A stretch of 63,223 nucleotides of DNA from contig QXYC01000013.1 in assembly GCA_009887095.1 (NCBI GenBank), forward strand, positions 1-63,223, read 5' to 3'. The translations under genes and the position numbers were made by a program. The stretch is from Candidatus Poseidoniales archaeon (GTDB lineage: Archaea; Thermoplasmatota; Poseidoniia; Poseidoniales; Poseidoniaceae). This document shows positions 4,803-55,851 of this stretch, piece by piece. Numbering within the stretch: the first letter of the stretch is position 1; the number at the start of each line of letters is the position of its first letter. The notes beneath the pieces were generated by a model. That model did not search any database. It was not told the origin of the DNA and worked only from the letters and a program-made list of their open reading frames with translations.

Positions 4803-5549
4803 ATGGGCGTTGACCGGATGCAATGGGGCGCTGAGTCTTGGCAATTTGCTGATTTGCATATGCCAGATGATCCCTCTCCGTTTGAGAATGCGGCTGGTGT
4901 TCCTTGTATCATGCTCATTCATGGTGGTTTTTGGAAATCCGCATGGACAAGTGAATTGATGCGTCCAATTGGGGATGACTTGGCCGAGGCAGGCATTGCA
5001 GCGTGGAACATTGAGTTCAAGGGATGGAGTGATGGTGACGAAGGGGTTTGGATGGACACGCTTTCCGATGTCATGCGTGCATGGGGGCAACTTGCGTTGC
5101 TTCCCGGCGTTGACATCACCCGTTCGATGATCATGGGTCACTCTGCTGGCGGCCATTTGGCGCTGTTGCTGGCAGCGAAAGCAGAACGAAGGCCATGGCT
5201 TACCATCGCTCAAGCACCCATCACCGATTTGATCGGGGCAGACAGCGCCAAACTCTCCGATGAGGGAGATGCTGTGCGCCGTTGGATCGGTTCTGCACCA
5301 AATGAATCACCCGATGTCTGGCGACAACTCAATCCAGTGGACCACCCAGCCGATGCATCGATTCTGCTTGTCCACGGAGAAACCGATGTCGATGTGCCAA
5401 AGGGCCAATCTGAAACATACGCTCGTGTCATGAAGGCCAAAGGTGTTGAAGTGCAAAAGTTGTGGTTGCCAGGCGACCATTACTCCGTCATCGATGTGGC
5501 GAGTGATGACTGGCTTGTCCAACTCAACGCCATTATTGATTGGCTTTAA
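4803..5549 (+). CDS. Alpha/beta hydrolase, kynurenine-formamidase/BD-FAE-like
   Basis: A 248-residue serine hydrolase. It has an oxyanion-hole HGGFW motif (residues ~40-44, LIHGGFWKS), the nucleophile elbow GHSAGGH around residue 115, a late Asp in HGETDVDVP and the catalytic His in GDHYSVID. HGGFW plus GHSAGGH is the pattern of BD-FAE esterases and bacterial kynurenine-formamidase-like hydrolases. The substrate is not provable from sequence. If it is a formamidase, it would connect with the aminophenol/aminomuconate block 6-12 kb downstream. Start is ATG 4803, with ATG 4818 possible. Divergent from the glutathione peroxidase gene; the SDR gene follows on the same strand after 38 bases. Confidence 0.8.
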   Translation: MGVDRMQWGAESWQFADLHMPDDPSPFENAAGVPCIMLIHGGFWKSAWTSELMRPIGDDLAEAGIAAWNIEFKGWSDGDEGVWMDTLSDVMRAWGQLALLPGVDITRSMIMGHSAGGHLALLLAAKAERRPWLTIAQAPITDLIGADSAKLSDEGDAVRRWIGSAPNESPDVWRQLNPVDHPADASILLVHGETDVDVPKGQSETYARVMKAKGVEVQKLWLPGDHYSVIDVASDDWLVQLNAIIDWL

Positions 5550-5587: not shown

Positions 5588-6409
5588 ATGGACATGGACC
5601 TCCTTGGTGCTGACTTCCCATACGCTTCAAACGCCCTAAAAGGAAAGCATGCGCTTGTGTGTGGCGCTAGCAAAGGAATCGGGCGAGCCACAGCAATGAT
5701 GATGGCCAAAGCAGGTGCGAATGTGACCGTCTGCGCCCGAAACTCGGCATCCCTTTCAGATCTTTGTGACGAATTGTCCGGGCTTGGCGAAGGCGAACAT
5801 GCAAGCCTTGTCTTGGACCTTGAGGACCAGGCCGCCATCCAGTCCTCAATCCCCGTTCTTCTTTCTCAGCGTGGTGCTGTTCACATTCTCGTCAACAACG
5901 CTGCTGGCCCACCCGGTGGACCCTTGCTTGGAAACACTTTGAACGACTTCGATGCACCGTTCAGACGCCATCTTCACGCAGCTCACACCCTCACACAGTT
6001 GATTGTTCCAGGCATGGAAGACGCAGGCTACGGTCGAATCATCCAAATCATTTCCACCTCGGTCAAAGAACCAATCCCAAACATTGGCCTCTCCAATACA
6101 CTTCGCGGCGCCATGGCTTCGTGGGCAAAGTCCCTCTCTCGCGAATTGGCGCCGTGCATCACGATCAACAACGTCCTGCCCGGTTTTACCGACACAGACA
6201 GATTGGGTTCCCTCGCCGCCTCGATACAAGAGCGAACTGGGAAATCACTCGATGAAGTTCAATCTGGTTGGTTGAATCAAGTGCCAATCGAACGTTTGAT
6301 CAATCCGTTGGAAACTGCATCTGCTCTCACTTTCTTGGCGCTCCCCGCATCTGGTGGGATCCGTGGCGTGAGTCTTGCCGTCGATGGTGGACGCTTGCGC
6401 AGTATTTGA
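5588..6409 (+). CDS. Short-chain dehydrogenase/reductase-like protein lacking the canonical Tyr-Lys
   Basis: A 273-residue Rossmann-fold SDR. The dinucleotide-binding loop is CGASKGIGRA (residues ~24-33) and NNAAGPPGG corresponds to the NNAG motif. The catalytic Ser seems kept (IISTSVKEPIPNIGLSN), but where YxxxK is expected the sequence reads LSNTLR, so Tyr and Lys are replaced. A known SDR subgroup has this same S..SN..R pattern, so it is a conserved variant and not a damaged gene. The C-terminus ends in the usual GVSLAVDGG. Start at ATG 5588 follows SDR practice; an in-frame TTG at 5540 would overlap the preceding hydrolase. It ends one base before the convergent secreted-hydrolase gene. 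Confidence 0.85.
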   Translation: MDMDLLGADFPYASNALKGKHALVCGASKGIGRATAMMMAKAGANVTVCARNSASLSDLCDELSGLGEGEHASLVLDLEDQAAIQSSIPVLLSQRGAVHILVNNAAGPPGGPLLGNTLNDFDAPFRRHLHAAHTLTQLIVPGMEDAGYGRIIQIISTSVKEPIPNIGLSNTLRGAMASWAKSLSRELAPCITINNVLPGFTDTDRLGSLAASIQERTGKSLDEVQSGWLNQVPIERLINPLETASALTFLALPASGGIRGVSLAVDGGRLRSI

Positions 6410-7455: not shown

Positions 7456-8319
7456 ATGGCACAGCGGGGAGGCATGGACGGCGAGGTTACACCCGAGCAG
7501 GCTCGACGAATCTTGGATATGTTAACCCAAGGTGGGGCAATGGAAGACATCAACACACCTCTTGCCCTTCGTTTGATTCCTCTCGCCTTAGAGTTAGAAG
7601 ATGAGGCCCTCGCAAATCGCCTGCTGGTTCACGCAAAAGAACATGCGGCGGATGAAATCGAATCAGGTTGGGCTACATTTGAAACGCTCAAGATGACCAA
7701 TGCATCCATTGATGAACTCTCAGAACTGACTGCAAAAGCTGAATTGATTGAACAGGGCGAACCTCTTTCGGCTGCGGTTGCCCATCACGTGGCTTTGCTC
7801 CACATGGCGAATGAGTCATACGAAGAAGCTCAAATGTTCGCAAGTCGGTCCTTGAGGTTACGCGAAAAGACCAGCGATACAAACGGCATTGTGTATGGAC
7901 TTGCGCTCTTGGAAGCATTGGCTAAAAAACAGCACCGCCATGAAAACGCACTTGTTCATGCATCACGACGAATCGAGTTGCTCATGAAACTCAAGGACGA
8001 GGAAGGGCAGATGGAAGCAATGGCGGACATGGGTCACAGCCAAGCAACCCTCGGACAGTTTGATGCAGCCAAAGATCTCTACACACAATCGCTTGAGCTG
8101 GCCGTTGCTCTCGAAGATTTATCTGGTCAACTTGTGGCTCGTTGGGGCCTTGCAGACATTGCAGAAATCGAAGAAGATTACGAAACAGCAATGCTCCAAC
8201 TTTCGGATTGCCTGCATGCTTTCATCAACGCTGGTCTGCCTACCCCAATCGCAGTGCGTCAGCGGATCGAAGCCCTTACATCGTTCAACAGTTCTTCCGG
8301 AGAACGAAGCAATTCCTGA
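7456..8319 (+). CDS. TPR-repeat protein
   Basis: A 287-residue all-helical soluble protein. From about residue 110 to 265 it shows tetratricopeptide-like pairs, e.g. VAHHVALLHMANESYEEAQ and DMGHSQATLGQFDAAKDLYT, with the W/L-G-Y-A-P spacing of TPR helices. The N-terminal third is helical and acidic with no recognised domain. TPRs act as protein-protein scaffolds; the partner is unknown. Start ATG 7456 is used; ATG 7474 is possible. A run of seven T follows the stop, so it may be transcribed alone and not with the downstream flavoenzyme. Confidence 0.75.
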   Translation: MAQRGGMDGEVTPEQARRILDMLTQGGAMEDINTPLALRLIPLALELEDEALANRLLVHAKEHAADEIESGWATFETLKMTNASIDELSELTAKAELIEQGEPLSAAVAHHVALLHMANESYEEAQMFASRSLRLREKTSDTNGIVYGLALLEALAKKQHRHENALVHASRRIELLMKLKDEEGQMEAMADMGHSQATLGQFDAAKDLYTQSLELAVALEDLSGQLVARWGLADIAEIEEDYETAMLQLSDCLHAFINAGLPTPIAVRQRIEALTSFNSSSGERSNS

Positions 8320-8388: not shown

Positions 8389-9636
8389 ATGGACCACGAC
8401 ATCTTCTTCTCAATCAGTCAGACTCCTGACGCAGCAGGCCGTGTGCCGTCTGAAGATGAAATGTTTGCGAACTACTTCCAACAACTTGAGTGCGCAGACA
8501 AGCTCGGTTTTGGGGTTGGGTGGATTGCTCAGGCCCATCTTTCCACTGATACTCAAAAGAGCAATTCACACCCGGTTGTACCCCATTGGCAGGGTGAAGT
8601 TGGTCTTTGCACAGATTTCCCACAACTCGCTATGGAATCATTTCGCAGAACCAGTTCAATCGAAATTGGAAGTGCTGTCATGGCAATTCTTGCCGCAGGT
8701 GGACCAATTGCACAAGCAGAGAGGATCGCCAACACGCTTCATCTCCACGGAATGAACCGAGACGAGCACCGGAAACTGCACGTTGGGTTCTCAGCAGGTC
8801 GGTTCGAATTTATGGCCCGCCCCTATGGCATCGTTCCTCGGAACGCTGTTGAAGAAGCAGCATGGCCTGCTCTCCGTGGACAAATTTTCATGGAAGCGGG
8901 TGAGATTTTCCTTCGCCTGCTTCGTGGTGATGTCGTCAATTCTGAATCCACCTATTCAACGGTCTTGACAAGGTCGAACTTCCGTTCCGATGGAGATTGG
9001 CAACGTGTGCAAGAAGCGGCTCTTGAGTTTGAAGGTCTCGACGCTTTACCAGACGAAGTTCCGATCCCAAAGCGGTATGTTTTCGAAGACTTGAAAATCG
9101 TTCCTAACACGTTCCGGAGGGAATTGTTAGAGCTGGTTGCAGGCACGCACGACCCTCGGGCTCAAACATTCCTCAACTCGTTCCTGCCCGTCAAGGTTTT
9201 CAATTTGTCAATCACAAAACCGGAAGTCATCGAATCTACCCACGAACGCATGGCGGCTGTGTTTCACCAAGATGGCGGGGAATGGCAACGCAGGGACATG
9301 CCTCGCACTTCGTTTGTGTTCCTCAATGCCGAACCTGGTCTGACATCGGAAGAACAGAGTGAAGCAGCAAACCGCGAAGCAAAAGCCGCTCTGGGTGCGT
9401 ATTGGAATGCGCTCGAGGGTACGATTGACCCCTCCAAGGTATCGAATGCCGCCAACAATGCGCTTATTGGTAATGCACAAGAGGTTGCACAACAAATCAC
9501 GGAGCGCTTCCATCCTGATGACAGGATCATGGCTTGGTTTGATTTCTTTAACCACGACTCTGATCGTGTCTGCAGGGACATGACTGCTTACATGGAACAG
9601 GTTGTTCCGCTGGTCGAAGCCTCGATGGCCAACTAG
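8389..9636 (+). CDS. Luciferase-like (LLM) flavin-dependent oxidoreductase
   Basis: A 415-residue member of the bacterial-luciferase/F420-FMN TIM-barrel superfamily. Supporting features are the start DHDIFFSISQTPD, the early ADKLGFGVGWIAQAHLS strand-loop (typically LGFDxxWxxEHH), EIGSAVMAILAAGGPIAQAE (usual TAV...PxxxAE) and LHVGFSAGRFEF (usual vGrG). Such enzymes oxidise organic substrates with reduced FMN or F420. Here the position near ring-cleavage genes suggests a monooxygenase step, but the substrate cannot be read from sequence. Start ATG 8389 places the first beta strand correctly; an upstream GTG at 8320 would encode an unrelated leader. The asparaginase-like gene follows after 8 bases, with GGTGAT as its ribosome site. 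Confidence 0.82.
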   Translation: MDHDIFFSISQTPDAAGRVPSEDEMFANYFQQLECADKLGFGVGWIAQAHLSTDTQKSNSHPVVPHWQGEVGLCTDFPQLAMESFRRTSSIEIGSAVMAILAAGGPIAQAERIANTLHLHGMNRDEHRKLHVGFSAGRFEFMARPYGIVPRNAVEEAAWPALRGQIFMEAGEIFLRLLRGDVVNSESTYSTVLTRSNFRSDGDWQRVQEAALEFEGLDALPDEVPIPKRYVFEDLKIVPNTFRRELLELVAGTHDPRAQTFLNSFLPVKVFNLSITKPEVIESTHERMAAVFHQDGGEWQRRDMPRTSFVFLNAEPGLTSEEQSEAANREAKAALGAYWNALEGTIDPSKVSNAANNALIGNAQEVAQQITERFHPDDRIMAWFDFFNHDSDRVCRDMTAYMEQVVPLVEASMAN

Positions 9637-9644
9637 GTGATGCT

Positions 9645-10760
9645 ATGCCAATCGAACACGATACACCTTCCGCAGTGGAACCGGGCCGGCCGGGAAGCAC
9701 CCTCTACCCGAAGAGCCCGTTAGGTGAACAGGTGGACGGGATCCCTACGGGTCGAGAAGTTGCTTGGGAGCCACTGGTGGACTACCGAAGAAACGGCGTA
9801 TCAGAAACCACAATACACGGTGCTGTGGCTTGGGCTCATGGCGATGAAGTGATTCATTCCTTCGGCGGGAACGTGCTTTGCTACGGCCGCTCGATGATGA
9901 AACCGTTTATGTTGAAGGCTTTCACGAAGGAATTGGAAGACACAACATGGGAACAAAAAGCGATTGCTGTTGCCTCTCATAATGGCGACACAGAACACGT
10001 GGCAGCAGCTCAGTCACTCTTGGCAGAAGCGGAATGGCCGCTCATGCTGACGCCTCTCGATGTACCATTGATTCAATTTGGACGCCAAGTTCGACGTCCT
10101 CGACGATGGTTTCACACATGCTCAGGTGAACATGCGGCAATCCTTCACGGATGCAAGAAAAAAGGATGGAATCGAGCTGGCTACACATTGCCAACTCACG
10201 AAGTGTTTCACGCCTACATGAAAGAAATCCGTACCTATCTCGGTTCGGATTGGACACCGTTGCGCGTCGCAAAAGACGGTTGTGGGTTGCCAACAGTTTC
10301 CAACACCGTTGCAGAATTGGCTCAAATCTATGCAGGTTTGGTTCGAGATAAGGACAAGGATTGGATTTGGGAGGCCATGGTCCGTCACCCGGATCTTGTT
10401 GGCGGATTCAACCGCTTGGATTCAACGGTGCTGAAAGCCGGGGAAGGGAAAGTCATCGCAAAAGAAGGTGCAGATGGACTTCTTGGGCTTGCTATCGAAC
10501 ATCCAGACTATCCAAAGGGGCTCGGAATTGTCGTGAAAATTGCACACGGTTGGAATTCTCAAGCAACTTGGTATGTGGCAAGAGCATTGTTGGGTGTGCT
10601 TGGAATCAACCTGCGAAATCCGTATCCACTCCACCGTCAGAAGGCGTTCATTGTCCCGGGAATTGTCCCACCAAAGTACCTTGAGGTCTTGGAAACATTG
10701 CCGACATGGGATGAATGGGACCCCGATGAGGATCGTTGGCTCTACGATGTGGAGATGTGA
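9645..10760 (+). CDS. Asparaginase-II (Rhizobium etli type)-like amidohydrolase
   Basis: A 371-residue protein with the beta-lactamase-like fold motifs of the asparaginase_II family: GRSMMKPF (Ser-x-x-Lys pair, about residues 85-92), VASHNGDTEHVAA, TCSGEHAAIL, DGCGLPTVSN and AKEGADGLLG. In R. etli asparaginase a Cys/Lys/Cys zinc site is built from CSGKH and DGCG. Here both Cys are present but the CSGKH lysine is Glu, so metal binding or specificity may differ. It may deamidate asparagine or hydrolyse another amide. It overlaps no neighbour: the aldehyde dehydrogenase ATG comes 2 bases after its stop, so the two are surely cotranscribed. Confidence 0.8.
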   Translation: MPIEHDTPSAVEPGRPGSTLYPKSPLGEQVDGIPTGREVAWEPLVDYRRNGVSETTIHGAVAWAHGDEVIHSFGGNVLCYGRSMMKPFMLKAFTKELEDTTWEQKAIAVASHNGDTEHVAAAQSLLAEAEWPLMLTPLDVPLIQFGRQVRRPRRWFHTCSGEHAAILHGCKKKGWNRAGYTLPTHEVFHAYMKEIRTYLGSDWTPLRVAKDGCGLPTVSNTVAELAQIYAGLVRDKDKDWIWEAMVRHPDLVGGFNRLDSTVLKAGEGKVIAKEGADGLLGLAIEHPDYPKGLGIVVKIAHGWNSQATWYVARALLGVLGINLRNPYPLHRQKAFIVPGIVPPKYLEVLETLPTWDEWDPDEDRWLYDVEM

Positions 10761-10762
10761 TC

Positions 10763-12226
10763 ATGAAGACGCTCATGAATTACATCGATGGAACGTTCGT
10801 CCCTGCGCAGTCGGGGGACACCATCGAAGATATCAACCCTGCAACTGGGATGGTCATTGCACACATTCCTCGTTCGACGAAGGCCGACGTGGAACTCGCT
10901 GCTGCGTCTGCCAAATCAGCCCAAGCAGATTGGAACGCTCTCACCCTCGACCAGCGTGCCGATTGGTTGGACGCCATCGCCGATGCGTTGCAAGCAAAGC
11001 ACGAAGCCATTGCTCAGGCCGAATCCCTTGACACTGGAAAGCCGATTTCACTTGCGCGGAGGGTTGATGCCACGAGGTCAGTCGACAATTTTCGTTTCTT
11101 TGCAGATTTTGCCAGAAAGCAGCAGCCATTGACCTTCGAAATGAGCGATGCGATGAACTTTGTTGAGCGCAACGGTTTGGGTGTTGTCGGCCTGATTACA
11201 CCATGGAACTTACCATTGTACCTCATGTCTTGGAAGGTTGCCCCAGCCTTGCTAATGGGTAACTCGATTGTCGCCAAACCGAGCGAAATGACGCCGCTGA
11301 CAGCAAATATTCTCGCAGAAACATTGGATGAGTTGAACCTTCCCCGTGGTGTGTTCAATCTCGTCCACGGCCTCGGTCCAGAAGTCGGTCAAGGCATTCT
11401 AGAGCATCCGCTGATCAACGGCATCTCGTTCACAGGCGGTACTGCAACTGGACGGATTGTTGCAGCCACCGCTGCACCCATGTTCAAGAAACTCTCTTTG
11501 GAACTGGGTGGAAAAAATGCCACAATTGTCCTTGAGGATGCAGACCTTGACCAAGCAGTTCAAGGTGCAGTCAAAGCGGCGTTTACGAATTCTGGCCAAG
11601 TCTGCTTGTGTGGTTCAAGAATTATGGTTCATGCCTCGATTGCCGATGAATTCATCAAACGATTTGTTGGGGAAGTAGCCGCCATGCGAATTGGTGAGCC
11701 GAGCGATGAAGCCACACAAATTGGAACCGTCATCTCAATGGATCATCTTGAGAAGGTCGAATTTTACATCAACTTGGCCATCGAGGAAGGCGGGACCATT
11801 CTCACGGGTGGCACTCGCTCGATGATGGGCGGCGTTGGCCCAACCCCCGAGGGGGCCTATCTCGCTCCGACCGTCATCGGTGGATTGAGCCACTTGTCCC
11901 GCTGCGCTACCGAGGAGATTTTTGGTCCTGTCGTGACCGTTCACACCTTTGATCGCCTTGCTGAAGTGACCGAAATGGCGAACGCTACGGATTACGGATT
12001 GGCTGGTTCGATTTGGACTCAAGATGTCGAAGTTGGCAAGGCTTTGGCGAAAACAATTGAAACAGGTATTGTTTGGATCAACACATGGTTGCATCGCGAC
12101 CTTCGCACCCCATTTGGTGGAGTGAAGCATTCTGGCGTTGGACGCGAAGGTGGTCAGTGGTCCCTTGGCTTCTTCTCGGAAACCACGAACATCTGCGTCA
12201 TGAACCCTCGAGAACTCGGTGATTGA
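10763..12226 (+). CDS. Aldehyde dehydrogenase, 2-aminomuconate/2-hydroxymuconate semialdehyde dehydrogenase type
   Basis: NAD-dependent oxidation of an aldehyde to a carboxylate. The 487-residue protein has all ALDH landmarks: ITPWNLP (Asn149), the NAD-binding FTGGTATGR, ELGGKN (general base Glu248) and the nucleophile in GQVCLCG (Cys281). Two features point to the AMSDH/HMSDH/ALDH8 subgroup: the double-Cys GQVCLC and the C-terminal INTWLHRDLRTPFGG, whose Arg binds the second carboxylate in characterised aminomuconate semialdehyde dehydrogenases. This matches the AmnB/AmnA-AmnD genes 2.2 kb downstream, whose product would be its substrate. Start ATG 10763 lies 2 bases after the asparaginase-like stop. 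Confidence 0.87.
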   Translation: MKTLMNYIDGTFVPAQSGDTIEDINPATGMVIAHIPRSTKADVELAAASAKSAQADWNALTLDQRADWLDAIADALQAKHEAIAQAESLDTGKPISLARRVDATRSVDNFRFFADFARKQQPLTFEMSDAMNFVERNGLGVVGLITPWNLPLYLMSWKVAPALLMGNSIVAKPSEMTPLTANILAETLDELNLPRGVFNLVHGLGPEVGQGILEHPLINGISFTGGTATGRIVAATAAPMFKKLSLELGGKNATIVLEDADLDQAVQGAVKAAFTNSGQVCLCGSRIMVHASIADEFIKRFVGEVAAMRIGEPSDEATQIGTVISMDHLEKVEFYINLAIEEGGTILTGGTRSMMGGVGPTPEGAYLAPTVIGGLSHLSRCATEEIFGPVVTVHTFDRLAEVTEMANATDYGLAGSIWTQDVEVGKALAKTIETGIVWINTWLHRDLRTPFGGVKHSGVGREGGQWSLGFFSETTNICVMNPRELGD

Positions 12227-12264
12227 GAACACATCTTCAAAAGCAGGCCATCTGATTTGAAAGC

Positions 12265-12996
12265 ATGACAGAGCAAGATTCGCTTCCACTCTTTGTCCTG
12301 CCAATGGTGCTCATGCCCGGTGAGGTTCAGGAACTCCGTGTCTTCGAACCACGCTATCGGCAAATGCTGGATGATTGCCTGCTCGACAACAAAAATTTCG
12401 GGCTCGTGATGAACGACCCCTTCGAGCCAAGCAACCATTGGGATGGTCCAAGAACGCATGGTTGCGAAGCGGAAATACTTGAACACGATACCAAAGGGAG
12501 CAATCATTTCATCTCGATTGTGGGACGGCGCAGATTCACGGTCGAGAACATCATACCCCCCGCACTTCCTCCTTTTGATCACCCCGAAATGGCCTTGCTC
12601 ACGAACGAGGACGGTCTGTATCCAGATTTGCAAACATTGCTCGAACACATTCCTGACGAGGCTACGCATCACAAACTGTACATCTCGGGCAATGTACGCT
12701 TCCAAGAAGAAACCACGCCAACCACGCCCGCCCATCAACAAATGCTCAAAGACGTGCTGAATGGCGTTCTCAACCGAATCGGAGCCGTTCTTCGCATCGA
12801 TGAGCAAATCTTGGACACGTGGGTTGCGGAGCGCGTTGACCATGTGATTGATGAGGATCCAAATTCTGTATTTACTGTTGCAGCTCTTGTGCTCAATGGA
12901 CTCGAATCCAAACAACAAATCCTCGCTTGTGCTGATGCAGAAGAAGCACTCGCTGAATTGATGCATCAACTGTCTGCATCATACGAGGAAGAATAG
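12265..12996 (+). CDS. LON substrate-binding-domain protein
   Basis: A 243-residue protein whose N-terminal ~110 residues match the N-terminal domain of Lon: [20 protein letters not shown] followed by [13 protein letters not shown] and GLVMNDP, then [18 protein letters not shown]. The AAA+ and protease domains of Lon are absent, as in stand-alone bacterial LON-domain proteins. The C-terminal half is helical and acidic. These proteins are thought to bind unfolded or specific polypeptides, but no enzymatic role is established. It follows the aldehyde dehydrogenase by 38 bases on the same strand and may share its transcript. Confidence 0.85.
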
Positions 12997-13048
12997 CGTT
13001 CCATTCCACCTGCGAGGGTTTCAAAACACATGTGACGGTGGAAGGACC

Positions 13049-13870
13049 ATGTCCGTACATCGCAATGCGCGCAAGGTCACGACACATACGCTTCTGGAAA
13101 TGAAGCGTGCAGATGAAAAAATCACCATGCTTACAGCGTATGATTATTCATTGGCTAAGCTGGTTGACCAAGCAGGAGTTGATGTGATTCTCGTAGGTGA
13201 TTCCGCTTCCAATGTAATGGCAGGCCAAGTCACCACCGTGCCAATGACATTGGACCACATGATCTATCATGCTCAATGCGTTCAACGAGCCGTTGACCGT
13301 GCACTCATTGTGGTCGACATGCCGTTTGGAACCTACCAGGGAAATTCAGCCATCGCACTTGAATCTGCGATTCGAATCATGAAAGAAGCCGAAGGCCATG
13401 CTGTCAAACTCGAAGGCGGGTCAGAAATCATCCAATCCATTGAGCGAATTTTGACTGCTGGAATTCCTGTCATGGGGCATCTTGGATTGACTCCTCAGTC
13501 GATTTACAAGTTTGGCACCTACACCGTTCGAGCAAAAGAAGAGGAGGAGGCTGAGAAACTCATTGCAGACGCAAAGTTGCTTGAAGCCGCCGGATGCTTT
13601 GGAATTGTGTTGGAAAAAATCCCTCGTGAACTTGCGAAGCGGGTCAGCGAATCCATTTCAATTCCAACAATCGGTATCGGTGCAGGTCCAGATTGCGATG
13701 GACAGGTGCTTGTCCTTCACGATCTCCTTGGCATCACCATGGATTTTTCTCCGAGGTTTTTGCGGCGTTATCTCAACCTCGCCGAGGACATTAACGGAGC
13801 CATCACTTCCTACTGTGAGGATGTTCGCTCTGGTGATTTCCCGAATGATTCGGAAAGTTACACTTCATGA
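13049..13870 (+). CDS. panB: 3-methyl-2-oxobutanoate hydroxymethyltransferase
   Basis: Adds a hydroxymethyl group from 5,10-methylene-tetrahydrofolate to 2-oxoisovalerate to give ketopantoate, the first step of pantothenate and CoA synthesis. The 273-residue TIM-barrel protein shows the PanB signature: [28 protein letters not shown] (metal-binding Asp), [22 protein letters not shown] and [18 protein letters not shown]. Length is normal. It depends on folate, and folD is 11 kb downstream. Placement among catabolic genes is probably incidental. The last 6 bases overlap the convergent membrane-protein gene. Confidence 0.95.
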
Positions 13871-14353
13871 GATTGTGTTGTAAACCGCTACTGCACCAGC
13901 AAAGGCGCCCAGGTCAATGCCCATTGCATGCCAGAGTCCGTAACTAAAGGGCGGTAATTGCTTTCGACCCCACAACATAGAAACGCAGGCCCACGCCAAG
14001 AGGATTGCGTACATTCCACAGAACAGGGCACCCCAGCCTGAGAGCCACACAATGCACAATGGAAGGGCAAGGGCGGCAAATCCAAACGTGTATTCGAGGC
14101 ATCGTTCAAACGATGTGTGAACTAAGATTCGGTACATCAAAGGTGTGAGGGCAAGGATGACGAGCAATGCGAATTGCGGCGGATTTGGTGTAAACACAGA
14201 ATCGAAGGCGGGAACGCCATACACTTGCCATCCGCTCCCAACGGCTGCACCGATGAGCGCAGGTGCTAAGATGTGCTTCGTCCCCGTCATCAGGTCTTGT
14301 TTGAGGGACACGGGGTTGGGCGCTTCCAATGGGAGCGTCACGGATTCCTCCAT
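13865..14353 (-). CDS. Small multi-pass membrane protein of unknown function
   Basis: A 162-residue protein with about four hydrophobic segments (residues ~28-45, 63-80, 92-125 as a pair, and 140-158). A short hydrophilic N-terminus rich in Glu and Pro precedes them. No conserved motif is recognised. It overlaps the 3' end of panB by 6 bases tail-to-tail and its start faces the amnB-like gene 101 bases away. Reported as real because it is a long frame with clear membrane topology in the only strand where this stretch has a sensible protein. Confidence 0.6.
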
Positions 14354-14422
14354 GTGGTGGCCAACTCGCCGTCTTGTTTGAGTCTTGGGTCCAACGCGTT
14401 GTGTTTGGATTGAACGCCGATG

Positions 14423-14431
14423 CCGATATAG
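14423..14431 (+). promoter_or_regulatory. TATA box for the ring-cleavage dioxygenase operon
   Basis: CCGATATAG centred ~28 bases before the amnB-like ATG (14455) is in the right place for a promoter giving a leaderless transcript; no Shine-Dalgarno sequence is visible before that ATG. It implies that the two dioxygenase genes can be transcribed separately from panB and upstream genes. Confidence 0.42.
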
Positions 14432-14454
14432 CCGTTAAGCGCTTGGCTTGTAAC

Positions 14455-15357
14455 ATGACGCAAGGTGAAATCGTAGCAGGTTGTTTGGCTCCTCATCCAC
14501 CGCACCTCGTCTACGCCGAAAACCCTCCACAAAATGAACCGGTTGCTGAAGGCGGTTGGGAGCAGTTGCGATGGGGCTATGAACGCCTTCGTGACTCCTT
14601 GAAAGACGTCGATTACGATGCCATCGTTCTCCTGTCTCCGCACTGGCAGACCTATGTCGGCACTCACTTTTTGGGACTTCCAAATTTCAAGAGCCTCTCC
14701 GTCGACCCTGTGTTCCCGAACCTTTTCCGATATCACTACGATCTCAACATAGATGTTGACCTTACCAGAAAAATCCACGACAAGGCTGCTGAGGCGGGTT
14801 TGGCTGTGAAGATGATGGAGAATCCAGACTTCCGTGTCGACTATGGCACCATCACCACCGGTCACATGTTTAACCCGGGATGGGACAAGCCACTCGTCGT
14901 GGTCTCTAGCAATCGTTCGCGTGATTACTACTCGGTGGAAGTCATGCAAGAAATGATGATTGAACTGGGGCGAGTTACACGGGAAGCCATTCTCGAAAGC
15001 GGGAAAAAAGTAGTCGTTCTTGCGAGCAATTCACTCTCTCACCGGCACTTTACAACCGAGTCTGAAATCCCTGAAGACATGAGTAAAGAGCACATCACCA
15101 GCCACGCAATGCATCTTTGGGACATGCGAATGATCGACTATATCCGCAGCGGACAAGCGCAGCGAATCCTCGATGAAATGCCGGAATTTACTGAACAAGC
15201 CATCGCTGAGAGCGATGGTGGTGGTCTTTCATGGCTGTTGTCGACGCTGGACACGCCGACATACCCTGGGATTCTGCACGGCTATGGGACCATCATCGGG
15301 ACAGGTAACGCCATTGTTGAATGGCCAGAACGCAACCATAAGGAGGCATCACAATGA
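14455..15357 (+). CDS. 2-aminophenol 1,6-dioxygenase beta (catalytic) subunit-like, LigB-type extradiol dioxygenase
   Basis: Type II (LigB-family) extradiol ring-cleavage dioxygenase, 300 residues. The N-terminus (GEIVAGCLAPHPPHLVYAEN) and the stretch VDYGTITTGHM resemble Pseudomonas AmnB strongly. The Fe(II) ligands are all in place, offset by one from AmnB numbering: His14, His63 (LLSPHWQ) and Glu252 (AIAESDGG). The acid-base His is His196 (SNSLSHRHF). The expected reaction opens an aminophenol-type ring between the OH- and NH2-bearing carbons' neighbour, giving 2-aminomuconate semialdehyde. Whether the real substrate is 2-aminophenol, a carboxylated relative or a catechol is open. Start ATG 14455 matches AmnB. 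The stop overlaps the next gene's start (ATGA), showing translational coupling. Confidence 0.88.
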   Translation: MTQGEIVAGCLAPHPPHLVYAENPPQNEPVAEGGWEQLRWGYERLRDSLKDVDYDAIVLLSPHWQTYVGTHFLGLPNFKSLSVDPVFPNLFRYHYDLNIDVDLTRKIHDKAAEAGLAVKMMENPDFRVDYGTITTGHMFNPGWDKPLVVVSSNRSRDYYSVEVMQEMMIELGRVTREAILESGKKVVVLASNSLSHRHFTTESEIPEDMSKEHITSHAMHLWDMRMIDYIRSGQAQRILDEMPEFTEQAIAESDGGGLSWLLSTLDTPTYPGILHGYGTIIGTGNAIVEWPERNHKEASQ

Positions 15358-16784
15358 GTGAAGGCGGTATTGTTGGTTCGTTCATCGTTCCAGTCCATCC
15401 CCACACTGTCTTGGTGCCGGAGCAAAACGAAGGTTGGCAACGCTTGCGCAACGCTTTCGACGAAGCGGCTCAACGAATCAAAGATTCAAACGCAGACCTT
15501 CTCGTCATCTACTCCACCACATGGCCAAGCATCATTGGTCATCAAATTCAAGCCGATCCAAACCCAGAATGGGTGATGGTCGACCACGATTTCCACGATT
15601 TAGGCTCGATTCCGTATTCATTCAACATTGATTCGGAGTTCGCTCACGCATGGGACGAAGCAAACAAGAAGCGAGGCCTCAAGTCTCGCACGGTCAATTA
15701 CACTGGCTTCCCGATCGATGTCGGCTCAGTTGTGGCGCTCAAACTCCTGAACCCGGAGAATGCAATTCCAGCCGTCATCGTCTCCTCCAATGTGTATGCA
15801 AACCGGTCCGAAACAACGGTTCTCGCCAAATCTTGCCTTGATGTCATCAAAGCAACGGGCAGGAAAGCAGTGGCCGTTACAGCAATGTCTCTCTCAAACC
15901 GCATGTTTACGACGGCAATCGACCCCAAAGACGACAAAATCCATTCCCTCAAAGACGACGAATGGAATCGTAAGATCCTCGAATTCCTTGGTGAAGGTCG
16001 CCTTGAGGATGTAGGCCAACTCTCCCGTACGATTCACAAGCAAATCCGCGTCCAAAAGGTCGTTGCGTTCAAACCAATGTGGTGGCTTGCAGGCATGAAC
16101 GAGAACCGTAACAACCTAACCGGTGACGTGCTTGCTTACGAAGCAATTCACGGCGCTGGAGGCGCTGTCGTCCACCTTGATCCAACGCCATCAGGTGCCG
16201 GTGACAAAGAATACGACGAGGATGATGTAGAATTTTTCAGCGGTGAGCGAAATGTGCTCGATGCAGAAGGAGATGCGCCTTCATTTGATGCACAACTCTC
16301 CCAACCGCAACAAACCGCGACTTCTTCGGGCCCAGCATTATGGGAACCAACCACAGGTGAGTCATCGGTCAACAGCGATGCTGCACCCAAACCTGTTGGC
16401 ATGTACCCTCACGCACGACGAGTCGGCGACCTGCTCTACCTATCCGGCGTTGGACCTCGCCAACCCGGCACGAATGCAATTCCCGGTGGACCAATCTGTG
16501 ACGAACAAGGTGCACCGCTCAACTACGATATCAAAGCCCAAACAAAGGCCGTTGTCGACAACATCACGAGGATTCTCGAAGAAGCCGGTGGCTCAATCGA
16601 CGATGTGCTCGATGTGACCTCGTTTTTGGTTGACATGGATCGGGATTTTGCTGGTTACAATGAAGTGTGGGCAGATACGCTCGGCAAGGTTGGACCGACA
16701 CGGACCACACTTGCCATCCGTGCGCTTCCAACTCCAATCGCCGTTGAGATGAAAGTCATCGCCAGAGCACCCAAAGAGAACTGA
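15354..16784 (+). CDS. Fusion: aminophenol dioxygenase alpha subunit-like domain + RidA/2-aminomuconate deaminase domain
   Basis: A 476-residue two-domain protein. Residues ~1-278 are a second LigB-fold domain like AmnA, the non-catalytic alpha subunit. It keeps HPH at 15-17, but the second iron ligand position reads YSTTWP where the beta subunit has SPHW, so it should not bind iron. Residues ~279-345 form an acidic, Gln/Ser/Pro-rich linker. Residues ~348-476 are a complete RidA (YjgF) domain resembling AmnD 2-aminomuconate deaminase, with YPHARRVGDLLYLSGVG, the active-site Arg450 in GPTRTTLAI and Glu465 in AVEMKVIA. The fusion would place the deaminase beside the ring-cleavage site, though the aldehyde dehydrogenase must act in between. 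Starts within the upstream stop codon (ATGA). Confidence 0.87.
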   Translation: MSEGGIVGSFIVPVHPHTVLVPEQNEGWQRLRNAFDEAAQRIKDSNADLLVIYSTTWPSIIGHQIQADPNPEWVMVDHDFHDLGSIPYSFNIDSEFAHAWDEANKKRGLKSRTVNYTGFPIDVGSVVALKLLNPENAIPAVIVSSNVYANRSETTVLAKSCLDVIKATGRKAVAVTAMSLSNRMFTTAIDPKDDKIHSLKDDEWNRKILEFLGEGRLEDVGQLSRTIHKQIRVQKVVAFKPMWWLAGMNENRNNLTGDVLAYEAIHGAGGAVVHLDPTPSGAGDKEYDEDDVEFFSGERNVLDAEGDAPSFDAQLSQPQQTATSSGPALWEPTTGESSVNSDAAPKPVGMYPHARRVGDLLYLSGVGPRQPGTNAIPGGPICDEQGAPLNYDIKAQTKAVVDNITRILEEAGGSIDDVLDVTSFLVDMDRDFAGYNEVWADTLGKVGPTRTTLAIRALPTPIAVEMKVIARAPKEN

Positions 16785-24158: not shown

Positions 24159-24195
24159 ACCGAACGCTCAAGGTTGAAGAGTGGCTGGCCAAAGC

Positions 24196-25074
24196 ATGGT
24201 CGCCCAACCCCTCGATGGAAAAGCCTGTGCTGCAAGCGTGGAAGAAGAACTCCACGAGCGAATCGCAGCGTGTATTTCCGCAGGTGTTCAACCTCACCTA
24301 GCGGTTGTGATTGTCGGTGATGACCCGGCCAGCCACGTGTATGTAAACTCCAAAGTAAAGGCGTGTGAACGACTTGGGATCAAAAGCACGCACATCGAAT
24401 TGCCATCCTCCGCATCTGAAGATGAAGTGCGGGTTGTGATTCAGCGTCTCAACGGGGATGCTGACCTCCATGGTATCCTCGTCCAGTCCCCTCTCCCATC
24501 TCACATGGACGAAGAGGCACTCACTGACTTGATCCATCCTCGAAAAGATGTCGACGGCTTCCACCCAGAAAACCTTGGCCGGCTGGTTCAAGGGCGCCTC
24601 GATGGAATGCTTCCATGCACGCCAAGTGGTGTTATGCGCATGCTGCAATGGGCAGGCATGGATTTGACTGGGAAAAGAGCGGTCGTGCTCGGGCGTTCAC
24701 GCATTGTGGGCAATCCACAAGCCCTTTTGCTCGGAGCAAAGGGGGCAGATGCAACCGTGACAGTTGTGCATTCACGCACGCAAAACGCACAAGTCATTTG
24801 TGCTCAAGCAGACGTTGTGGTGGCTGCCATTGGGCGGCCAGAAATGGTTCGAAGCGATTGGATCAAAGATGGTGCCGTCGTGATTGATGTTGGTATCAAT
24901 CGAGTGGATGATTCAACCCGAGATCGTGGATGGCGCCTTGCAGGGGATGTGCATCCGGAAGTCGCCGAAAAAGCATCTTGGTTATCGCCCGTACCGGGCG
25001 GCGTTGGACCAATGACCATCGCCATGTTGATGGAAAACACAGTCCGAGCCGCAGAAACATTTCAATCAGAATGA
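24196..25074 (+). CDS. folD: Methylenetetrahydrofolate dehydrogenase/cyclohydrolase
   Basis: Interconverts 5,10-methylene-, methenyl- and 10-formyl-tetrahydrofolate. The 292-residue protein has YVNSKVKACE (catalytic Lys), GILVQSPLPSHMD, DVDGFHPENLG, PCTPSGVMRML, the NADP-binding VVLGRSRIVGNP and the C-terminal PVPGGVGPMTIAML. Presence implies use of tetrahydrofolate, in line with panB and pdx-type metabolism here. Start ATG 24196 gives the family's usual N-terminus (MVAQPLDGKA); a GTG at 24181 is possible. It follows the VOC gene by 37 bases and precedes the Pro-rich membrane-protein gene by 9 bases. Confidence 0.95.
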   Translation: MVAQPLDGKACAASVEEELHERIAACISAGVQPHLAVVIVGDDPASHVYVNSKVKACERLGIKSTHIELPSSASEDEVRVVIQRLNGDADLHGILVQSPLPSHMDEEALTDLIHPRKDVDGFHPENLGRLVQGRLDGMLPCTPSGVMRMLQWAGMDLTGKRAVVLGRSRIVGNPQALLLGAKGADATVTVVHSRTQNAQVICAQADVVVAAIGRPEMVRSDWIKDGAVVIDVGINRVDDSTRDRGWRLAGDVHPEVAEKASWLSPVPGGVGPMTIAMLMENTVRAAETFQSE

Positions 25075-54653: not shown

Positions 54654-54657
54654 TGAC

Positions 54658-55851
54658 ATGCCCCTTCGAGATGATTTTCCAATTTTACGGCGTTTGGTTC
54701 ATGGCCACCCGTTGGTTTACCTCGATAATGCAGCAACAACCCAAAAACCACAAGTCGTCATCGACGCTATGAACGACTATTACACCCAATCCAATGCAAA
54801 TGTCCACCGAGCAGTCCACACACTTGCTGGCGAAGCGACGGATGGGTACGAAGCATGCAGAACCCGTTTGAAATCATGGTTCAATGCTGAGCGGGCAATT
54901 CTAACGAGCGGCACGACGGAAGCCATCAATCTCGTGGCCCATGCCTGGGGTCGAGCCAACCTCGTCAAAGGTGATGCCATCGTGCTCACCGAAATGGAAC
55001 ACCACTCCGATATCGTTCCTTGGCAAATGCTGGCTGAAGAACGCGGTGTTGAAGTTCGCTATGTGCCCGTGCTCGAGGATTTCACATTGGACATGGATGT
55101 CTATGCGGCCTCGCTTGAAGGTGCTAAACTTGTCTGTGTGGTTCACACTTCCAATGTCTTGGGTGTGCGAAACCCCCTCGAGGATATCATTCGCCTCGGC
55201 CATGAGGCAGGCGCGAAGGTGCTGATTGACGCCGCACAAGGTGTTCCGCATGAGCGGATCGACTTCGATGCATTTGGCGCAGATTTCATGGCTTTCTCCG
55301 CCCACAAAATGTGCGGCCCCACCGGTATTGGAGCCCTTCTTGTACGGCCCGAGGTGTTTGAAGAAATGGAGCCCTTCATGGGCGGTGGCGACATGATTGA
55401 AACGGTAACCATCGAAGGTTCCACGTACCAAACGAATGAACACAAATTCGAAGCTGGCACCCCCCGAATCGCAGAAGCAATTGGATGGAACGCGGCTTTT
55501 GGCTGGATGGAACCCCTCGATCTCAAACACGAACACAAGCGTATGCTTGAGATCGCTCGATACACAGCAGCAGAGTTGCGTACGCTTGGTATGACTGTTT
55601 ACGGACGCCATGATGACGAAGACAGCGCCGTTGTCTCATTCCTCCACCCGACGCTCCACAGCGAAGATCTTGCCCATCTTCTCGATGCACGCGGGTATGC
55701 GGTTCGTACCGGCCACCATTGTGCACAACCTCTGTTGCACCGTTTGGGTATTTCCAGTACGGTGCGAGCCTCCTTCTACTTGTACAACACAATGGAGGAA
55801 GCTGAACAGTTCATTGCTCAAGTCAAGTCCATCTTGGAGAGGTTTGCATGA
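54658..55851 (+). CDS. sufS: Cysteine desulfurase SufS
   Basis: Removes sulfur from cysteine to give alanine and a persulfide for Fe-S assembly. The 397-residue, group II enzyme has VYLDNAATTQKP, the PLP-lysine in FSAHKMCGPTGIG and the persulfide Cys in VRTGHHCAQPLLH. The 11-residue-extension-free active loop is typical of SufS, which needs SufE, and sufE follows directly with an ATGA overlap. Many archaea lack SufS or SufE, so the gene set is bacterial-like. Confidence 0.96.
   Translation: MPLRDDFPILRRLVHGHPLVYLDNAATTQKPQVVIDAMNDYYTQSNANVHRAVHTLAGEATDGYEACRTRLKSWFNAERAILTSGTTEAINLVAHAWGRANLVKGDAIVLTEMEHHSDIVPWQMLAEERGVEVRYVPVLEDFTLDMDVYAASLEGAKLVCVVHTSNVLGVRNPLEDIIRLGHEAGAKVLIDAAQGVPHERIDFDAFGADFMAFSAHKMCGPTGIGALLVRPEVFEEMEPFMGGGDMIETVTIEGSTYQTNEHKFEAGTPRIAEAIGWNAAFGWMEPLDLKHEHKRMLEIARYTAAELRTLGMTVYGRHDDEDSAVVSFLHPTLHSEDLAHLLDARGYAVRTGHHCAQPLLHRLGISSTVRASFYLYNTMEEAEQFIAQVKSILERFA

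Follow-up and report, generated by a model that had tools for sequence, protein, structure and literature searches.

How a marine archaeon might use enzymes of aminophenol ring cleavage, and which compound would feed them, is the question raised by the stretch of DNA analysed here, a window of 63,223 nt corresponding to contig C5 of the metagenome-assembled genome (MAG) G000, which is 68% complete and belongs to the Thermoplasmatota, class Poseidoniia, order Poseidoniales (Marine Group II). A first-pass annotation had placed three steps of the Pseudomonas aminophenol meta-cleavage route within about 6 kb of it, and all three genes were found where it had put them: an AmnC/ALDH8-like aldehyde dehydrogenase (ALDH), an AmnB-like dioxygenase, and a fusion of AmnA with an AmnD-like domain. 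The conserved gene set begins upstream of the ALDH gene, at ~4.8 kb of the window. Just upstream of that gene, and absent from the earlier annotation, are genes for a luciferase-like (LLM) flavoprotein and an asparaginase-like protein that would offer a kynureninase-free way to 2-aminophenol. We judge it slightly on the probable side that the window holds most of a kynureninase-free catabolism of tryptophan via 2-aminophenol. The genes on which this depends are the following.

4803..5549, plus strand: alpha/beta hydrolase (PF20434), proposed deformylase in the role of formylkynurenine formamidase.
5588..6409, plus strand: protein of the short-chain dehydrogenase/reductase (SDR) family without the classical YxxxK (adh_short; start codon picked by eye).
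8389..9636, plus strand: LLM flavoprotein, identified by predicted fold; proposed kynurenine Baeyer-Villiger monooxygenase.
9645..10760, plus strand: class-3 (ReAV-type) asparaginase homologue (PF06089, ReAV alignment); proposed beta-aspartyl ester hydrolase.
10763..12226, plus strand: ALDH of the 2-aminomuconate-6-semialdehyde dehydrogenase type (AmnC/ALDH8-like; best PDB matches are AMSDH).
14455..15357, plus strand: AmnB, catalytic beta subunit of the 2-aminophenol 1,6-dioxygenase type (PDB match, residues, tree).
15354..16784, plus strand: fusion of AmnA (alpha subunit) with a RidA-family 2-aminomuconate deaminase (AmnD) (PDB matches).

The ring-cleavage enzymes can be assigned with some assurance. 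The best PDB match of the LigB protein at 14455-15357 is the beta subunit of 2-aminophenol 1,6-dioxygenase (356 bits, E 1e-105), and the 2-aminophenol dioxygenase of the ARO microcompartment, 7txy, is also among its matches. By alignment it has H15, H64 and E253, which we take from the CNB-1 enzyme to be the three iron ligands claimed earlier, together with H197 as the catalytic His (numbering from 14452). Among 94 distinct AmnB sequences the motif PHPPHL is found in 84, SPHW in 82 and LSH.HF in 92. An HpaD-like identity was rejected, since 3,4-dihydroxyphenylacetate dioxygenase scored 32 bits against 356; MEMO lay outside this comparison. AmnA follows directly 3' of AmnB and has STTW, by eye, at the place of the SPHW of the beta subunit, a degenerate site; residues 6-274 of the fusion match the alpha subunit of 2-aminophenol 1,6-dioxygenase (138 bits), and residues 342-473 match 2-aminomuconate deaminase (96 bits, or 99 for the domain alone). 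Aligned to 6izh, the RidA domain retains Ser35, Gly36, Arg117 and Lys135 of the deaminase, described as conserved cleft residues of the Pseudomonas AP-3 enzyme (PMC6742747), and has the hexamer residue Arg56 changed. Over 30 stretches, AmnA and RidA lie in one frame in 14 and are separate in 14, with RidA upstream in one (L192) and one unclassed (L189). The best PDB matches of the ALDH are 2-aminomuconate 6-semialdehyde dehydrogenases (AMSDH), the top one at 467 bits and the first other entry at 400. Its R105 and R445 align with Arg120 and Arg464 of AMSDH, described as binding the substrate (PMC4286809), and the catalytic C281 and E247 are also there. These alignments and key residues bear out the earlier assignment and support AmnB, AmnA with its AmnD-type RidA domain, and the AMSDH-type ALDH as aminophenol/aminomuconate enzymes; cleavage of 2-aminophenol by AmnAB is the predicted activity.

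A tree of AmnB and AmnA was drawn from 16 of the 20 AmnB-centred stretches (without L037, L038, L047 and L048), the AmnB rows of L040, L160 and L188 being missing because of a stop sign in the aligned part. Archaeal AmnB grouped with bacterial AmnB (support 86/94, on a branch that is not starred), archaeal and bacterial sequences were split for AmnB and AmnA alike, and the genomes G216 and G246 branched off first among the archaea. Old shared inheritance would give such a pattern, in a tree several of whose forks are not starred. Placement of the dioxygenase with LigB paralogues of unrelated function such as MEMO had earlier been named as what would speak against the assignment; its grouping with bacterial AmnB speaks for the assignment, as far as a tree can that has a single HpaD outgroup on a very long branch and includes no MEMO.

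The ring-cleavage set is near-core in Poseidoniales. At E 0.001, 177 of the 193 order genomes had a LigB/AmnB-type match, a count that includes genomes with an AmnA-level match only (G120, G131, G151, G179), and so did 34/34 genomes at least 90% complete; at E 1e-40, AmnB was found in 77 of the 81 order genomes of the phylum sample. LLM is present in 95 and tryptophan 2,3-dioxygenase (TDO) in 93 of 96 order genomes, the latter in 27/29 of the most complete. Among 211 genomes of the phylum outside the order, six have both LLM and AmnB, one has LLM only (G326) and none has AmnB only, a co-occurrence (Fisher 6e-11) behind which stand only about three independent lineages: the class-mates (genomes of the same class outside the order, which we take to be, probably, Marine Group III; five of six sampled), G216 and G246. 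The contig of G326 ends close behind LLM, and all that G260 has of LLM is an end fragment of 23 residues. A local oddity of the MAG that holds the window is ruled out by this order-wide and wider occurrence, which suggests that several Thermoplasmatota lineages inherited a capacity for oxygen-dependent ring cleavage. The three enzyme types of the Pseudomonas route do occur in a marine archaeon, as first proposed, but the set is no copy of that pathway and is not limited to one archaeon.

Gene order ties the set to TDO. In the class-mate stretch L161 an operon runs TDO, SDR, LLM, asparaginase homologue, ALDH, AmnB, AmnA, RidA and formyltransferase, where neighbouring ORFs overlap by no more than 11 nt or are separated by 12 nt at most; in L160 an additional hydrolase gene stands between ALDH and AmnB, the order being otherwise the same. 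L158 and L159 hold the TDO end of this operon and L187 and L188 the other end, so that TDO, SDR and LLM are adjacent in 4/4 class-mate stretches reaching that far (L158-L161). In G246, TDO lies ~1.4 kb before a run of LLM, asparaginase homologue, ALDH, AmnB, AmnA and RidA; in G216 the same run is preceded by SDR, and TDO is on a separate contig. Within Poseidoniales, family f1 has the set without TDO together in most of ten stretches, and in family f2 it mostly lies in two separate places, except in L046, L048 and L050. A scan of a contig collection with the LLM of the window, of which the best 80 of 403 confirmed relatives were kept (79 with archaeal titles, one filed under Rhodobiaceae; bacterial coverage is by plasmids), gave stretches, many of them cut, that also carry the asparaginase homologue (79), ALDH (75), SDR (61) and AmnB (58). 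The TDO of the window's genome, encoded elsewhere in that genome, matches TDO structures at 158 bits and contains all three motifs, HQ..ELWF, SG..S..(F/M)R..E and GSSG; among 18 distinct TDO sequences the HQ pattern is missing in one and the GSSG pattern in seven. The genomics argue strongly for a link of the set to TDO, as for ring cleavage as its predicted role.

The kynurenine pathway proceeds through TDO, formamidase, KMO, kynureninase, 3-hydroxyanthranilate dioxygenase (3-HAO), ACMSD and AMSDH. The archaeal set shares its start, TDO, and its end, AMSDH and aminomuconate, but the middle differs. Kynureninase, a search for which had been advised in the first-pass annotation, was over cut-off in only one of 60 order genomes (G013), with weak matches in ten more. 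3-HAO was over cut-off in three of the 60, two of them strong, and weak in 12 more, and no control genome matched. On these two enzymes, the canonical route was rejected for the order at large. With both enzymes nearly absent and TDO heading the operon, tryptophan looks like the main road, though not via 3-hydroxyanthranilate: of the earlier suggestion that the set could serve tryptophan breakdown, the tryptophan link seems to stand and the 3-hydroxyanthranilate branch seems not to.

Eight genomes of the phylum have TDO and no LLM. In four of them (G213, G221, G226, G234) a class-V pyridoxal phosphate (PLP) protein passes Pfam's cut-off for the kynureninase C-terminal domain; its gene is no more than 2.6 kb from TDO in three and on another contig in G226. 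The best solved relative of the G234 protein is a Pseudomonas kynureninase (142 bits, the next at 76); the G213 gene scores 111 bits with the SufS model and 99 with that of kynureninase, yet has the kynureninase C-terminal domain. A gene with this domain was found on none of seven TDO or LLM stretches from six LLM carriers with TDO outside the order, and on none of 12 Poseidoniales TDO stretches.

What looks like a previously undescribed route of side-chain removal may be put together as follows, all seven reactions being predicted from gene identities, residues, linkage and distribution, and deformylation, Baeyer-Villiger oxygenation and ester hydrolysis the most tentatively. TDO would convert tryptophan to N-formylkynurenine, which the alpha/beta hydrolase (replaced by the formyltransferase in other lineages) would deformylate to kynurenine. 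Since kynurenine combines an aryl alkyl ketone with an electron-rich ring, a Baeyer-Villiger reaction should move the ring to oxygen: LLM, with reduced flavin and O2, would place an oxygen atom between the ketone and the aminophenyl ring and yield the 2-aminophenyl ester of beta-aspartate. The serine of the asparaginase homologue would then attack the beta-aspartyl carbonyl, giving aspartate and 2-aminophenol. AmnAB would open the ring to 2-aminomuconate semialdehyde, the ALDH would oxidise this to 2-aminomuconate, and the RidA domain would free ammonia and leave 2-oxo-3-hexenedioate. That LLM oxygenation and hydrolysis of the beta-aspartyl aryl ester replace kynureninase in this way, with aspartate instead of alanine as the side chain leaving, has in our estimate an even chance of being right.

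The LLM protein has 415 residues and is encoded directly upstream of the ALDH region, followed by the asparaginase homologue. Sequence searches with it were empty (NCBIfam at E 0.01, Pfam at 0.001, PDB at 10). By its predicted fold (AlphaFold2 model, pLDDT 85, pTM 0.86) it is a luciferase-type protein: among the best 50 of 81 Foldseek matches at E 0.001 (best E 3.5e-13) are 1luc, RslO1, SsuD, RutA and the type II Baeyer-Villiger monooxygenase (BVMO) 4uwm, at 11-16% identity to luciferase-family structures in the alignments listed. Luciferases and ketolactonases are grouped as type II BVMOs in PMC8706424, and LLM resembles this family (3,6-diketocamphane monooxygenase, LuxAB) in its predicted fold. 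On this model it is proposed as an FMNH2/O2-dependent kynurenine Baeyer-Villiger monooxygenase that would turn ketone into ester. Close relatives of LLM, 97% and 95% identical, are in a Poseidoniaceae archaeon and a Poseidoniales MG-II chromosome. The contig filed under an uncultured Rhodobiaceae MAG (L132), with an LLM 77% identical to that of the window, is probably a binning error. In the plasmid collection LLM was matched only in Streptomyces clavuligerus (three records, 46% identity); beside the homologue on pCLA1 (L155:15001-16245), none of the set was seen among the adjoining ORFs of the one record viewed by eye.

The asparaginase homologue lies directly 3' of LLM in 78/79 stretches. 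Arg47, Ser48, Lys51, Ser80, His139, Asp187 and Lys263 are kept in 96/96 distinct sequences, and both Ser-Lys tandems of class 3 L-asparaginase (Ser48-Lys51 and Ser80-Lys263) are thus invariant, as in ReAV of Rhizobium etli (PMC8602277, PMC11024299), with which it shares PF06089 and the nucleophile Ser48. For ReAV it has been proposed that Ser48 attacks the beta-amide and that an acyl-enzyme forms (PMC8602277). The archaeal proteins differ from ReAV in their aromatic-catabolism gene context and in the zinc site: the ligand Lys138, given as 97% conserved within the family (PMC11024299), is Glu in 92 and Gln in four of the 96, and both Cys135 and Cys189 are kept in 92. A kept nucleophile and a changed zinc ligand fit a beta-aspartyl hydrolase with a different leaving group, in which the aspartyl-enzyme mechanism would be retained for a new substrate, and hydrolysis of a beta-aspartyl aryl ester is proposed. 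A role of this protein as formamidase was considered and set aside, since a hydrolase or formyltransferase is already beside it on many stretches.

Other readings of the same genes have to be weighed. LLM might be an F420- or flavin-dependent dehydrogenase or reductase instead of an oxygenase; the Foldseek matches listed include Mer, F420 alcohol dehydrogenase and FGD, but nine of the ten best are monooxygenases or luciferases, and reduction would leave the release of 2-aminophenol unexplained, which makes this improbable. Less improbable, if still rather unlikely, is that tryptophan is degraded via 2-aminophenol with another chemistry of LLM and the asparaginase homologue, for instance with LLM hydroxylating kynurenine or an anthranilate-type compound and an unrecognised enzyme, such as a class-V PLP protein, cleaving the C-C bond. 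The TDO operon and the AmnAB assignment are independent of the Baeyer-Villiger step, LLM enzymes perform several oxidations, and some genomes have class-V PLP proteins without an assigned role. On the stretches compared, however, no further enzyme recurs with the set across lineages beyond SDR and the deformylase candidates, and a beta-aspartyl hydrolase directly behind the monooxygenase suits an aspartyl ester well. That the ring-cleavage enzyme acts on 3-hydroxyanthranilate, taking the place of 3-HAO as a LigB-type enzyme, and that a decarboxylase is encoded elsewhere, would agree with the near-universal TDO and the scarcity of 3-HAO; we consider it most improbable, given that kynureninase is not over cut-off in 59 of the 60 genomes, that no decarboxylase family is among the conserved cluster genes (a genome-wide ACMSD search was not made), and that the nearest solved relatives of AmnB are named for 2-aminophenols. 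Equally slight is the chance that external aminophenol is the substrate and TDO incidental. Plasmid-borne bacterial amn/cnb clusters have the same AmnB-AmnA-ALDH-RidA set, but the archaeal set is near-core across the order and forms one operon with TDO in class-mates, and a gene for an amino-acid permease is on 18/20 AmnB-centred stretches.

Several observations weigh against the kynureninase-free route from tryptophan. The TDO of Poseidoniales lies outside the cluster, beside CtaA-family and UbiA-family genes. A class-mate of another genus, G195, is 97% complete and has neither LLM, AmnB nor TDO, and G013 holds TDO, LLM, kynureninase and a strong 3-HAO together. The kynureninase of G013 scores 426 bits, and the contigs concerned (C29 and C44, loci L069 and L068) may reflect contamination or a true double pathway; the genome also has a second, weak class-V protein. 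The swap of kynureninase for LLM is unclean among the eight TDO genomes described above, as the only kynureninase-like gene is borderline in G256, where it comes immediately after TDO, and cut in G309, and G205 and G352 lack one. Class-V PLP proteins that score 18-63 bits with the kynureninase model (cut-off 246) occur in ten of the 60 order genomes, as well as in G246, G260 and G270, and in G005, G011 and G042 their genes are 13-17 kb from LLM; such a protein could conceivably act as kynureninase in some Poseidoniales. Cysteine-desulfurase models gave the best scores for the five that were scanned, and the kynureninase C-terminal domain is missing from the four of these compared with Pfam. 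Class-V proteins near these models are found at L070, L071, L072, L176 and L177, in some Poseidoniales and class-mates. As to the enzymes themselves, several F420-dependent proteins listed for LLM share its fold, no gene of the cluster was recognised as a flavin reductase (a genome-wide search for one was not made), and the alpha/beta hydrolase is not recognisable as a formamidase. The ALDH and TDO both fall under NCBIfam equivalog cut-offs: the ALDH scores 546 bits with the 2-hydroxymuconic semialdehyde dehydrogenase model TIGR03216 (cut-off 693), and the class-mate TDO of L161 scores 158.8 with TIGR03036 (cut-off 390.7).

Among known systems, the closest parallel to the lower part of the route is 2-aminophenol meta-cleavage, as in the amnRJBACDFEHG genes of Burkholderia xenovorans LB400 (PMC3790839) and the cnb genes of Comamonas testosteroni CNB-1. 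The same AmnB, AmnA, AmnC-type ALDH and RidA-type deaminase are present, with the same AmnB-AmnA order. In the archaea, by comparison, AmnA and the deaminase can share one frame, and the set is preceded by LLM and the asparaginase homologue and, in class-mates, also by TDO. No 4-hydroxy-2-oxovalerate aldolase was over cut-off in the 60 order genomes, nor in the 14 control genomes; a FAA-family protein, one per genome, is found outside the cluster in 54 of the 60. The ARO bacterial microcompartment locus of Actinobacteria (PMC10470539) has a 2-aminophenol dioxygenase (7txy) and an ALDH in common with the archaeal set, and differs in that shell proteins belong to it; the main text of that paper contains none of the words tryptophan, kynurenine, monooxygenase and luciferase. 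Heimdallarchaeota are reported to have an aerobic kynurenine pathway (PMC11707553, PMC6737245). In the open-access literature, at the level of titles and abstract openings and with subscription journals mostly outside, no description of the route proposed here was among the matches listed.

If tryptophan catabolism is indeed near-core, it would tie Marine Group II to dissolved protein and amino acids and supply carbon, ammonia and aspartate. These archaea are mostly uncultured. They are called globally abundant in the title of a genome survey (PMC6336850), whose main text has none of the terms tryptophan, aromatic, dioxygenase, asparaginase or kynurenin-. A passage on a water layer of the Gulf of Mexico reports community-level degradation of 2-aminophenol and tryptophan, with no assignment to Marine Group II in that passage. 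If the Baeyer-Villiger and ester hydrolysis steps are true, nature would have a second way through a step that biochemistry has attributed to kynureninase alone, and LLM and the asparaginase homologue, two protein groups to which no role is assigned, would acquire functions open to testing.

The remaining members of the set, and other features of the window, may be described more briefly. The latter are listed here.

7456..8319, plus strand: TPR protein (Pfam TPR_12), a conserved neighbour, probably non-enzymatic.
12265-12996: LON-substrate-binding-domain protein, inside the cluster.
13049-13870: panB, inside the cluster.
24181-25074: FolD-family protein (PF00763, PF02882).
54655-55848: SufS cysteine desulfurase, a class-V protein over the cut-off of the SufS model.

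The closest NCBIfam model to the SDR protein is PRK08339 (160 bits, under the cut-off of 339). By eye, SN...R replaces the catalytic YxxxK, and S, N and R are each found in 82 of 83 distinct sequences. The gene adjoins LLM in L158-L162, and the protein is perhaps the flavin reductase of LLM or a downstream reductase. The alpha/beta hydrolase gave a best AlphaFold2 model with pLDDT 87 (the other four 47.7-73.5), whose Foldseek matches are generic esterases and acylaminoacyl peptidases, with the kynurenine formamidase 4e11 at rank 27. Over 114 stretches, in which some genomes appear more than once and many stretches are cut, the hydrolase is present alone in 61, the formyltransferase alone in 15, both in none and neither in 38. 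In family f2 the formyltransferase gene lies directly 5' of SDR in 8/8 LLM-centred stretches, which is the hydrolase's place in much of f1, and in class-mates it is the last gene of the operon. The motif N.HP is present in 16/16 and D.G in at least 14 of 16 formyltransferase sequences, both presumably catalytic. From these positions, either protein may be the deformylase of N-formylkynurenine. The formyltransferase could pass the formyl group to tetrahydrofolate, and the FolD-family gene in the window points to a tetrahydrofolate pool able to accept it.

The TPR gene is on 78 of the 80 stretches from the contig collection against 0/14 LLM-centred stretches from other lineages. Between ALDH and AmnB lie the LON-domain gene, panB and a minus-strand ORF, and the three genes first reported are thus non-contiguous; the LON-domain gene recurs on 40/80 and panB on 63/80 related stretches, without an evident link to the pathway. 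The amino-acid permease gene of the AmnB-centred stretches lies near AmnA-RidA (for example L035:6674-8335) and is not in the window, and the member that was scanned carries a C-terminal EF-hand pair. In the window, a CocE-type hydrolase follows AmnA-RidA at the place where other stretches have the permease.

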